From an archaeon (GTDB lineage Archaea; Nanobdellota; Nanobdellia; Woesearchaeales; GW2011-AR15), in assembly GCA_018657065.1 (NCBI GenBank), contig JABHXU010000005.1, positions 1 to 64,000 of the forward strand: a stretch of DNA of 64,000 bases, written 5' to 3'. Of the stretch, positions 6,082-8,916 are shown in pieces; positions within the stretch are counted from its first letter, which is position 1, and every line of letters begins with the position of its first letter. The position numbers were made by a program, and so were the translations under genes. The notes under the pieces were generated by a model, which saw only the letters and a program-made list of their open reading frames with translations, had not been told where the DNA came from and did no database searches.

Positions 6082-6531
6082 CTAAGCAGAATTCCAAATA
6101 TTGTCGCCTACATAATGAATATTTTTTACAATTTTCCCTGTTTTCATATCTTTAATTTCTTGCCCAGAAAAAAGAGTTAATCCTATTGCTATAGGTTTTT
6201 TATGTGTTTCATCAACGATTACAATAAATTCATTTTTTTCTATTTCCTCATCAAATTCAGTTATTCCTGGACGCATCATATCAACACCTTTAGCTGCATA
6301 AGGTACTGCCCCCATATCAACTGTAATTGTCTTTAAAAGACTATTTTTTAAAATAAATCTAAGAGTAGGAACAAGCTTTTTTTCATAATAAAAAAATTTT
6401 GACTCACTATTAATCAAAACCACATTATCATCTAACTCAAATTTATCTTTTTTGGAGAATTCTAAATCATATAATTCAAATAGTGTTTTAATTAATTCCT
6501 TAACTTCTTTTTTTTTAATTGCTTTTTTCAT
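6082..6531 (-). CDS. MCT-1/Tma20-like PUA domain protein
   Basis: The 149-residue product matches archaeal relatives of eukaryotic MCTS1/Tma20, which act in translation initiation and ribosome recycling with DENR or as part of eIF2D. It has the MCT-1-like N-terminal domain (1-70). The PUA domain begins TVDMGAVPYAAKGVDMMRPG (from about 75) and ends KPIAIGLTLFSG...NIHYVGDNIW. Its ATG overlaps the stop of the DUF371 gene (6528-6531), so the two are co-translated. It is the last gene of the RIO1 / coiled-coil / DUF371 / PUA operon. The exact archaeal role is not settled; RNA or ribosome binding is the safe statement. Confidence 0.85.
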   Translation of the reverse strand: MKKAIKKKEVKELIKTLFELYDLEFSKKDKFELDDNVVLINSESKFFYYEKKLVPTLRFILKNSLLKTITVDMGAVPYAAKGVDMMRPGITEFDEEIEKNEFIVIVDETHKKPIAIGLTLFSGQEIKDMKTGKIVKNIHYVGDNIWNSA

Positions 6532-6908
6532 ATTATTTCAACTTGTGCTTTTGCTTTTGGATCCTTAAGTTTTTCAATTAAATCTCTATTAAGGTTTATA
6601 GCTGCTTTATTTGCTTTAATCCCTAATGTTCTATCTGATAAAAAATCTGATAATCTAATTACAATTTCTTCTTTATGATCAAAATATTTATTCACTTTTG
6701 AAATTATCTCTTCTTTTATTTCATCTATAGAGATTATTATTTTTATTGTATCTTGTCCTTTAAGTTTCATAAGTTCGTCATAAGAAAAATCAGCTCTTAT
6801 TCCAACAATACAATCTCCGTTTTTTGTTAAATAAGAGTCTTTTGTGAACTCTAATGTGGTGTTATGTGTTGCCAATAAATTTTCATGGCCGTAGATAAAG
6901 AACTTCAT
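6528..6908 (-). CDS. DUF371 family protein
   Basis: The 126-residue product carries the family pattern of DUF371: an early GHENLLATHNTTLEFTK stretch (7-23), then LTKNGDCIVGIRADFS (27-42), and a C-terminal part that includes SDFLSDRTLGIKANKAA. The family is archaeal, short and of unknown function. It overlaps the preceding coiled-coil gene and the following MCT-1-like gene by 4 bases each, so it is translated in step with them. The conserved THxTTxEFT and DCIxGxxAD residues look like an active or ligand site, but no reaction is known to me. Confidence 0.85.
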   Translation of the reverse strand: MKFFIYGHENLLATHNTTLEFTKDSYLTKNGDCIVGIRADFSYDELMKLKGQDTIKIIISIDEIKEEIISKVNKYFDHKEEIVIRLSDFLSDRTLGIKANKAAINLNRDLIEKLKDPKAKAQVEII

Positions 6909-7147
6909 ACTTTTCTGCTTTCTTTATCAACTAAATCTTCAATAGGTTTTTTTTGCTCTTTACTTGCTTTATCAGCTAAATCCTGCAAATCTACGCCTAA
7001 TTCTTTTAGTGCTGAAACATGCATTTGCATTAATTGTTCTACTATTCCAACTAATTTCATTAATTCTTGTCTTTCTTTTGCAAGTGTTGAAAGAGCACCT
7101 TTATGAAATCCAATTTGTTCATCTTTAGAAGTATTTTGTTCTACCAT
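6905..7147 (-). CDS. Small helical (coiled-coil) protein of unknown function
   Basis: The product is 80 residues and almost entirely charged helix, with heptad-like spacing through residues 15-60 (LAKERQELMKLVGIVEQLMQ). It has no cysteine, signal peptide or membrane segment. The ATG at 7147 follows an AGGTGA ribosome binding site. It lies 31 bases after RIO1 on the same strand and overlaps DUF371 by 4 bases, so it is a real operon member despite its size. A structural or adaptor role in the same translation or ribosome-assembly process is a guess from context. I do not recognise the family. Confidence 0.65.
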   Translation of the reverse strand: MVEQNTSKDEQIGFHKGALSTLAKERQELMKLVGIVEQLMQMHVSALKELGVDLQDLADKASKEQKKPIEDLVDKESRKV

Positions 7148-7178
7148 GAAATCACCTTTTATTTTGTAAAGATCGTTG

Positions 7179-7892
7179 TTATATAATAATTTCTTTTTTT
7201 ATTTTTTCAAATATCTCTTTACTATTTACTTTTAATTTATATTTTTTAAAAAATCTCTCAAGATTTTTCAGGTCCCTTTCTAAATATTCTAATGCATGGT
7301 AATCTTTTGTCGATGTACCTTGAGAAAAATCAATAAAAAAAGGTTTTTCTTTAAAATTAAGAATATTAAATTCTGATAAATCTCCATGTACTAAGCCTAA
7401 TTTCGCAAGATTTGAAACTGAATCAATAATTTTATCTGAAAATTCTTTGAGATTTTTTGGAACTGAATCCTTTAATTGAGGAGCAGGAACATTGTTTCCA
7501 ATAGATTCCATTACTAAAACATTGTTCATGAATGTTATGACACTAGGAACATTAATTTTCTCTCTAGCAATTAATAAATTTCTATATTCTCTTTGTACCC
7601 ATTTAAAAATAACTTGACGTTTTTGGTTTTTAATTTGTTCAAATCTAGGATCTGTTTTAATGTAAGAATGCATTTTATTAAAATTACATGAATGGAGTCT
7701 ATAGATTTTAACTATGACCACTGTTTCCTCATCATGATTTGAACTTGCTAAGAATACATTTGATTCTTTTCCAATCATTACTGGACTTAAAAGTTCATCA
7801 AAATGTCCTTCTGTACTTAACTTAAACAATGTTCTAAGGGTAAAACCATCAAAAACATTCTTGTAAATTTTAAATTTTTCTAAACTCTTCAT
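7179..7892 (-). CDS. rio1: RIO1-type atypical protein kinase
   Basis: RIO kinases/ATPases act in late small-subunit ribosome maturation. The 237-residue protein has the N-terminal RIO segment FTLRTLFKLSTEG, the Lys in VVIVKIYR (about 62), the catalytic loop HGDLSEFNIL (169-178) and the metal-binding IDFSQGT (187-193). The RIO1-specific spacing and the FxxGxESxVF-like loop (GKESNVFLAS, 41-50) support RIO1 over RIO2, and there is no N-terminal winged helix. The ATG lies 28 bases from the bidirectional TATA box at 7915-7926. It leads the operon with the coiled-coil, DUF371 and MCT-1-like genes, all plausibly linked to ribosome function. Confidence 0.93.
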   Translation of the reverse strand: MKSLEKFKIYKNVFDGFTLRTLFKLSTEGHFDELLSPVMIGKESNVFLASSNHDEETVVIVKIYRLHSCNFNKMHSYIKTDPRFEQIKNQKRQVIFKWVQREYRNLLIAREKINVPSVITFMNNVLVMESIGNNVPAPQLKDSVPKNLKEFSDKIIDSVSNLAKLGLVHGDLSEFNILNFKEKPFFIDFSQGTSTKDYHALEYLERDLKNLERFFKKYKLKVNSKEIFEKIKKEIII

Positions 7893-7914
7893 TAATTTTC
7901 AAGATAACAATAAG

Positions 7915-7926
7915 ATTTATAAATTT
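7915..7926. promoter_or_regulatory. Symmetric TATA box serving RIO1 (minus) and a candidate RNA (plus)
   Basis: ATTTATAAATTT is close to palindromic. Its centre is about 28 bases from the RIO1 start codon at 7892 on the minus strand and about 26 bases from the first base (7946) of the long stem of the candidate RNA on the plus strand. Both distances equal the normal archaeal TATA-to-start spacing, so it may fire in both directions. Confidence 0.5.
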
Positions 7927-7945
7927 AGAGCTTTACTTACGCTTT

Positions 7946-8046
7946 ACTTGCCTTTTTTGGGAACAATGGGGCTCTACTTATTTACAAGGACTGTGTCCAA
8001 CAAAGTTTTGTTACCTCACGTTACCGTCAAAAAGGCAAGTTTTTAT
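7946..8046 (+). ncRNA. Candidate structured small RNA closed by a 13-bp stem
   Basis: This non-coding stretch begins ACTTGCCTTTTTTG (7946-7959) and ends CAAAAAGGCAAGT (8028-8040). The two ends pair perfectly over about 13 bp, enclosing about 70 bases. Inside are smaller hairpins, GGAC-TGT-GTCC and AACAA-AGTT-TTGTT, and a repeated GTTACC. A T-rich run follows directly at 8040-8046, as expected for archaeal termination. The TATA box at 7915-7926 places transcription start at the first stem base. It does not match tRNA, 5S, SRP, C/D-box or H/ACA patterns I can check by eye. A short mobile element with 13-bp inverted ends is the main alternative. Confidence 0.45.
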
Positions 8047-8087
8047 TCTATAAAATCTAGTATTTAAAAATTATTAAGAAAAAAAAA

Positions 8088-8354
8088 TTACTCGTCTTCT
8101 GGATTATAAGACGGAACTGCTGATTTATTTATAATCATAATATCACCAACACTTTTAACAAGTTGATGAGGAACAACGACTCCTTTTGCACTTCCTAAAA
8201 CTTGTGTTAAAAATGAATTTCTTGTAGCTTTAACTCTCCATCCACCAATTTTGTTTGTAGCTATAATAATCTCCTCAATATCTCCAAAATAGTCTCCTTC
8301 ATCTGTGAAAACTTTCATATCATAACATTCTGAAACTCTTTTCATCTTAAGCAT
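8088..8354 (-). CDS. PRC-barrel domain protein
   Basis: From the ATG at 8354 the product is 88 residues. The start is set by a GGAGGG ribosome binding site 8 bases upstream; an in-frame TTG at 8369 overlaps that site. The sequence MKVFTDEGDYFGDIEEIIIA followed by GVVVPHQLVKSVGDIMIIN is the PRC-barrel fold, with the G-x-V/I-x-D-I pattern and the closing 'V...GD.iil'. In euryarchaea small PRC-barrel proteins act as cell-division partners of SepF (CdpA/CdpB); others associate with RNA-processing factors. Which role applies here is unknown. It is a monocistronic gene, divergent from the AK6-type kinase with a palindrome between them. Confidence 0.85.
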   Translation of the reverse strand: MLKMKRVSECYDMKVFTDEGDYFGDIEEIIIATNKIGGWRVKATRNSFLTQVLGSAKGVVVPHQLVKSVGDIMIINKSAVPSYNPEDE

Positions 8355-8401
8355 TATAAATCCCTCCAAATACGATAAAAATTACAAATTTTTAGCGTGC
8401 C

Positions 8402-8423
8402 AATAAAACAAACGTGTTTTATT
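8402..8423. promoter_or_regulatory. Perfect 9-bp inverted repeat between divergent genes
   Basis: Arms AATAAAACA (8402-8410) and TGTTTTATT (8415-8423) are exact complements with a 4-base spacer. The site lies 48 bases upstream of the PRC-barrel gene and about 28 bases upstream of the AK6 TATA box. It could be an operator for either gene, or a stem-loop. Confidence 0.45.
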
Positions 8424-8450
8424 ACCTATACTTCTTTTAATTATTATCAC

Positions 8451-8458
8451 ATTTATAT
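8451..8458 (+). promoter_or_regulatory. TATA box of the AK6-type kinase / transporter operon
   Basis: ATTTATAT lies about 27 bases before the ATG at 8482, consistent with a leaderless transcript. Confidence 0.5.
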
Positions 8459-8481
8459 AGTTTTTTATATTCCTGTGCTCC

Positions 8482-8916
8482 ATGATTATAATAATTTCAG
8501 GTACTCCAGGAACAGGTAAAACCACATTTGCAAAAAAAATTGCAAAAGAAAAAAATCTTGAATATATTGATGTTAAAAAAATAATTGAACAAAATAATCT
8601 TTCTGAAGGTTTCGATAAAAAAAGGAATACAAAAATTATTGATGTTGAAAAATTGAATAAAATTCTGTTAAAATTAATTAGTGAGAAAAAAAATATTGTC
8701 ATTGATTCACATATGTCACATTATCTACCTTCAGATGTTGTTGATATTTGTTATATAACGAAATGCTCATTACCTATACTCAAAAAAAGATTAGAAGAAA
8801 GAAATTATTCAGAAGAAAAAATTCGAGAAAACCTAGATGCTGAAATTTTTGATACTTGTAGAATTGAAGCTTTGGAAAAAGGACATAAAATTAAGGTAGT
8901 GAAAACTGATGAATAG
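8482..8916 (+). CDS. AK6/Fap7-type adenylate kinase (ribosome assembly NMP kinase)
   Basis: The 144-residue P-loop protein has a Walker A GTPGTGKTT at 7-15 and the short lid and NMP region typical of human AK6/yeast Fap7: IDSHMSHYLP, the conserved ICYITKCSLPILKKRLEERNY, and a NLDAEIFDTCRIEA stretch. This family converts AMP and ATP to ADP and acts with Rps14 in small-subunit maturation. Its size excludes the normal Adk, which often follows secY in archaea but is not seen there in this window. The start is a leaderless ATG after the TATA box. The next gene overlaps by 8 bases. Confidence 0.9.
   Translation: MIIIISGTPGTGKTTFAKKIAKEKNLEYIDVKKIIEQNNLSEGFDKKRNTKIIDVEKLNKILLKLISEKKNIVIDSHMSHYLPSDVVDICYITKCSLPILKKRLEERNYSEEKIRENLDAEIFDTCRIEALEKGHKIKVVKTDE

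Follow-up and report, generated by a model that had tools for sequence, protein, structure and literature searches.

The element at positions 7946-8040 of the window, by which we mean the whole 64,000-nucleotide stretch of archaeal DNA analysed here, is very likely a conserved structured RNA. The family to which it belongs, with members in the order Woesearchaeales, is likely new as far as the Rfam and literature searches show. More specifically, homology, structure, strand, promoter position and independence from neighbouring genes are shown by sequence comparison; transcription is inferred. Woesearchaeales are a large order of mostly uncultured organisms with small genomes, and, apart from the universal species, their small RNAs seem to have received little characterisation, which is also the impression left by a short literature search. 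An RNA family kept in the compact genomes of 13 taxonomic families, mostly with a promoter of its own, implies a selected function that annotation pipelines have missed. What we present as novel is an RNA family with no relation to those already known; no novelty is claimed for its mode of action, and its role in the cell is not known.

The host genome (G000; 25 contigs, 1.49 Mb) carries a single copy of the RNA, the parts of which are listed in Table 1. An earlier sequence-only reading had proposed a candidate structured RNA in which a perfect 13-bp stem closes about 95 bases with internal hairpins, followed by a T run and encoding no protein. The stem (helix P1, ACTTGCCTTTTT with its 3' partner) is real and is perfect over 12 bp, the next pair (T7958/C8028) failing. 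The internal hairpins (7988-7998 and 7999-8012) and the T run (8040-8044) are present, and the element is not covered by any open reading frame of at least 60 aa. Stem length is the sole correction to that candidate, which is otherwise supported, with transcription inferred.

The 64-kb window holds only three perfect 12-bp inverted repeats whose arms lie no more than 150 bp apart, and none of 13 bp. Of 200 shuffles of 7930-8050, 197 fold less stably than the native sequence (z = -2.8). The opposite strand of the element folds equally well, so folding alone carries no information on strand. A chance stem beside a chance promoter, without function, would find support in the two other 12-bp repeats of the window and in a folding z-score of just -2.8, and the host stem and promoter taken alone are modest evidence given those repeats. 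This explanation is nevertheless all but excluded, being refuted by conservation over 13 families and by compensatory changes in three helices.

Table 1. Features of the RNA locus in the window.
Feature	Position	Strand	Basis or remark
BRE/TATA-like box AAGATTTATAAAT, probable promoter, shared with RIO1 on the - strand	7912..7924	+	Sequence and upstream boxes of homologues
Noncoding RNA, approximate extent from stem to stem	7946..8040	+	Homologues in 26 genomes, covariation, alignment-free flank pairing, GU pairs
P1 5' strand, 12 bp perfect	7946..7957	+	Pairs with 8029-8040
P2 5' strand GGGAAC, one mismatch	7959..7964	+	Pairs with 8020-8025; weaker helix
P3 5' strand UGGGG, short helix	7967..7971	+	Pairs with 8014-8018
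Conserved unpaired CUCUA, consensus about NYCWA after G	7972..7976	+	Alignment; last A invariant
Conserved unpaired ACAA, 5' of apical hairpin	7984..7987	+	Alignment
P4 apical hairpin GGAC-UGU-GUCC	7988..7998	+	25/25 paired with AU/GC/CG exchanges; loop URU
Small A/U hairpin AACAA-AGUU-UUGUU, host copy, not universal	7999..8012	+	Host fold and homologue comparison
P3 3' strand CCUCA	8014..8018	+	Pairs with 7967-7971
P2 3' strand GUUACC	8020..8025	+	Pairs with 7959-7964
P1 3' strand	8029..8040	+	Pairs with 7946-7957
T-run, possible terminator	8040..8044	+	Sequence

The RIO1 product encoded in the window shares 67-68% identity with Woesearchaeota MAGs and archaeon GW2011_AR15. A common core, GGGGCTCTA...ACAACGGACTGTGTCCAACAA, recurs ahead of RIO1 in the intergenic DNA of three named relatives, enclosed by stems of quite different sequence. 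Among 353 Woesearchaeales genomes, an exact pattern for this core, GCTCWAN{6,18}GGRCTGTGYCC, matched 9 of the host family's 10 and was all but absent outside it; a control pattern gave 0 matches. A match in G224 (L056) was rejected on its resemblance to coding sequence. A covariance model built from the pattern matches (R1) and its successors (R2 and R3) brought the total to 27 RNAs, spread over at least 26 genomes from 13 families, all within Woesearchaeales. To be accepted, later members had to combine the apical hairpin with paired flanks and a non-coding position. Weak covariance matches that lacked the P4 hairpin with paired flanks, or looked coding-like, were rejected (L076-L078, L080, L081, L083, L086, L087, L113 and L169-L177), and a locus with a P4-like hairpin and unconvincing flanks (G249, L166) was excluded. 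In other orders of the class, covariance matches reached only 21-27 bits, several of them in open frames, and no convincing member was found. The large covariance searches scored only 13-18 candidates per genome, so the absence of the RNA from many families may reflect low sensitivity. Genomes carry one copy each, except for one relative with two strongly diverged copies. With one copy in the host and no more than two, strongly diverged, in any genome, a mobile repeat was rejected; many copies with target duplications, which the sequence-only reading had named as a refutation, are not what we find.

In a structural alignment of 25 sequences, 89.9% of cells are paired and 13 of 15 pairs show double changes, that is, changes on both sides. 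The covariation score is 0.704; shuffles give 0.264 +/- 0.024, and slid partners do not exceed 0.25. The P2 and P3 registers of this alignment were set by hand for each sequence, with variable loops trimmed or padded with N, and because of this hand fitting the score favours structure. Two tests are free of that bias. The P4 hairpin, which involves no register fitting, is 97.7% paired in a plain MAFFT alignment, with GC, AU and CG pair types represented. In alignment-free duplex energies computed on 45-nt flanks, a copy's own 3' partner ranks first in 24 of 27 cases, and the summed own-flank energy is -735 kcal/mol, compared to -494 for the best of 20,000 permutations. The covariance check in relatives that the sequence-only reading had suggested therefore returns strong conservation together with compensatory change. 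GU pairs occupy 36 cells of the 25-sequence alignment and would read as AC mismatches on the complement, which identifies the + strand as the RNA strand.

The consensus is a rod that reads, from 5' to 3', P1, P2, an internal loop, P3 (GGG), GNYCWA, ACAA, P4 with a U-R-U loop, and AA. It often includes an A-containing bulge of 2-4 nt on the 5' side between P1 and P2, and often a further variable helix after GNYCWA. The flanking helices are almost wholly changed in sequence between copies and keep their pairing. Conserved unpaired stretches reach at most about 5 nt, and the unpaired positions beside them differ from family to family. As a separate observation, a 3-nt bulge on the 5' strand between P1 and P2 (AGA, AAA, ACU or AUC) recurs in L070, L074, L069, L084, L079, L075 and L052, often flanked by UUAC/GUAA or GUAC/GUAC pairs. 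It is not a K-turn: Watson-Crick pairs follow it, with no GA on the opposite strand.

In the host, the stem is preceded at 30-31 bp by a TATA box (TTTATAAA, 7916-7923), itself following a BRE-like AAGA. The sequence-only reading had placed such a box at the expected distance, and this holds across the family: 17 of the 25 copies have a TATA-like box whose start lies 27-35 bp ahead of P1, compared to a mean of 2.2 and a maximum of 8 in 2000 shuffles. It had also assigned the box to RIO1 in the other direction. The same box lies on the other strand about 25-30 bp before the RIO1 ATG (7892), so a box common to both genes, in a leaderless arrangement, is plausible.

The genes around the RNA differ between lineages. 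The host copy diverges from RIO1 and converges on a PRC-barrel gene. Elsewhere, the RNA lies downstream of a PRC gene (G003), convergent to aIF2-gamma (second copy of G002), next to UDP-glucose dehydrogenase (G008/G009), divergent from rpL3 (G052) or, in many other genomes, downstream of a gene for a protein that we call X. Because these contexts are unrelated, both orientations occur and a TATA-like box stands before most copies, we regard the RNA as an independent gene in most lineages. A 5' leader or riboswitch was rejected on these arrangements, namely the divergent and convergent neighbours in the host, aIF2-gamma in G002 and the position downstream of X elsewhere. Taken together, compensatory changes and an own promoter satisfy two criteria for a stand-alone structured ncRNA gene, in silico only and with transcription inferred. 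Independently of this, the region 6082-8916 of the window resembles a translation or ribosome-maturation neighbourhood, with a PUA protein, DUF371, RIO1, a PRC-barrel protein and, at 8482-8916, what we take to be a possible Fap7-type kinase.

Protein X, a conserved protein of ~150 aa, carries the motif INPFS..KWII.P..H.KI and is encoded in 224 of 353 Woesearchaeales genomes (L116-L145, e.g. L117:1486-1935, + strand). It has no match above Pfam or NCBIfam cut-offs and no significant PDB match by sequence. Its AlphaFold model has a pLDDT of 92.7, and a fold search with this model gave no match at E below 0.06; the weak matches are mostly of nuclease type (Hjc, YaeQ, splicing endonuclease), too little for assigning a function. 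In 13 genomes, representing 8 families, the X gene is the immediate upstream neighbour of the RNA, co-oriented with it and no more than 260 bp away. Every one of the 26 genomes with the RNA also encodes X, whereas the order as a whole has it in 224 of 353 (hypergeometric test, P = 4e-6, uncorrected for phylogeny), a co-occurrence inflated by the relatedness of the genomes. Many X-bearing genomes yielded no RNA, and none was found in 80 further fragments downstream of X, so the adjacency is not general. A functional link between X and the RNA is possible, with inherited gene order as the plain alternative for their adjacency. In two genomes, G340 and G343 (L079 near 1501 and L110 near 1501), the X coding sequence ends at or inside the 5' side of the RNA.

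These arrangements raise the alternative that the element is a processed 3' UTR element of the X mRNA, acting as a stabiliser, terminator or processing signal, to which certain lineages, including the host's family, later added a dedicated promoter. In its favour are the position directly downstream of X in those 13 genomes, the overlap with the X stop region in G340 and G343, and the lack of a clear TATA box in the f15 copies tested. Several copies lack such a box, including four directly after X (G023, G345, G340 and G235), and for the TATA-less copies directly after X (f15) processing from the X mRNA or co-transcription is possible. Against it, the 17 copies with a TATA-like box at promoter distance include X-adjacent ones (G004, G042, G049, G232, G242 and G256), the host RNA is not beside X and is convergent to a neighbour, and the apical core is more conserved in sequence than a stabilising stem would require. 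We consider the 3' UTR explanation unlikely and retain that of an independent gene.

The sequence-only reading had found that the element fits no RNA class it could check, and this holds. Even at permissive thresholds, Rfam (15) has no match for the RNA of the window or for that of 20 homologous loci; the only permissive matches, MIR2119, CopA and BjrC1505, were rejected as chance. ARAGORN reports 0 tRNA or tmRNA genes in the window, and with no Rfam match at the RNA or its homologues a tRNA or tmRNA identity was rejected. The models for archaeal SRP RNA (RF01857) and RNase P RNA (RF00373) do not match the locus, and the host has both RNAs elsewhere (G000:C1:64307-64578 and G000:C7:10732-11088, respectively), so the idea that the element is one of these RNAs otherwise missing from the host was rejected as well. 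Archaeal SRP RNA is likewise free-standing, with a long rod-like helix and a conserved apical domain that binds protein, but measures about 300 nt compared to about 95 nt here. Archaeal RNase P RNA is also a free-standing structured RNA and differs in size and conserved regions. Archaeal H/ACA guide RNAs, hairpins of about 70-100 nt with internal loops, are similar in shape, but the new RNA lacks a 3' ACA box, a visible K-turn, a recognised guide pocket and an Rfam match. On inspection, the 25 copies have no ACA in common 3' of the stem, where a T-run is frequent, and no RUGAUGA or CUGA boxes of C/D RNAs were seen. A further parallel is with structured RNA candidates from comparative genomics (e.g. 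the 104 motifs of PMC2864571), which share covariation, intergenic position and unknown function; among such candidates, too, Rfam 15 offers no match for the new RNA. Searches of the Woesearchaeota and DPANN ncRNA literature, at title and abstract level, turned up no description of it.

A very divergent form of a known class, e.g. an atypical H/ACA RNA, could still be invoked, since several classes have a superficially similar shape, a long hairpin interrupted by internal loops. We consider this very unlikely in view of the missing Rfam matches at the window and the 20 homologous loci, the RNase P and SRP RNAs elsewhere in the host, and the absence on inspection of an ACA after the stem, C/D boxes and K-turn G.A pairs.

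We propose that the locus is a stand-alone gene for a small structured ncRNA of about 80-120 nt, with a TATA promoter of its own that would direct + strand transcription. The RNA is predicted to fold as a long irregular hairpin (P1, P2 and P3) beneath a sequence-conserved apical domain made up of the GNYCWA bulge, the ACAA/AA internal loop and P4 with its U-R-U triloop. The rod, free to vary, would serve as a scaffold and the apical domain as a putative protein-binding site, so that the RNA would work as a small ribonucleoprotein; a protein contact has yet to be demonstrated. The best candidate partner would be protein X, whose gene immediately precedes the RNA in 8 families. As a joint account, an RNA gene acting through bound protein is the reading towards which we lean, by a narrow margin, with neither transcript nor protein contact shown. 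The protein-binding mechanism by itself is an inference that we offer tentatively and with slightly more doubt than conviction.

A competitor for mode of action is an independent RNA whose single-stranded CUCWA or ACAA base-pairs with a conserved target, in the manner of an antisense or guide RNA. Both motifs are conserved and unpaired, as this would require. However, the conserved unpaired stretches measure just 4-5 nt, the adjoining unpaired positions vary between families, and no C/D or H/ACA boxes and no K-turn were seen. Because such stretches are so short and the long helices are free to vary, protein binding fits better than antisense guiding, which we hold to be unlikely.

A bolder version of the protein-binding proposal would make the RNA and X a dedicated Woesearchaeales RNP with a housekeeping role, e.g. 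in translation or ribosome maturation, and without counterpart in other archaea. This idea rests on the position of the host RNA between RIO1 and the Fap7-like kinase and, elsewhere, beside rpL3 or aIF2-gamma, and we regard it as unlikely.

For further work, the family offers a covariance model, a candidate partner protein of unknown function and a named genome, AR15 (CP010425.1), with two copies, at about 393.66-393.75 kb and about 1,105.0-1,105.1 kb. The second, strongly diverged copy in G002 (archaeon AR15 or a near-identical genome) lies at L058:1447-1560 on the - strand, corresponding to G002:C1:1105045-1105129, and it is this copy that converges on aIF2-gamma.
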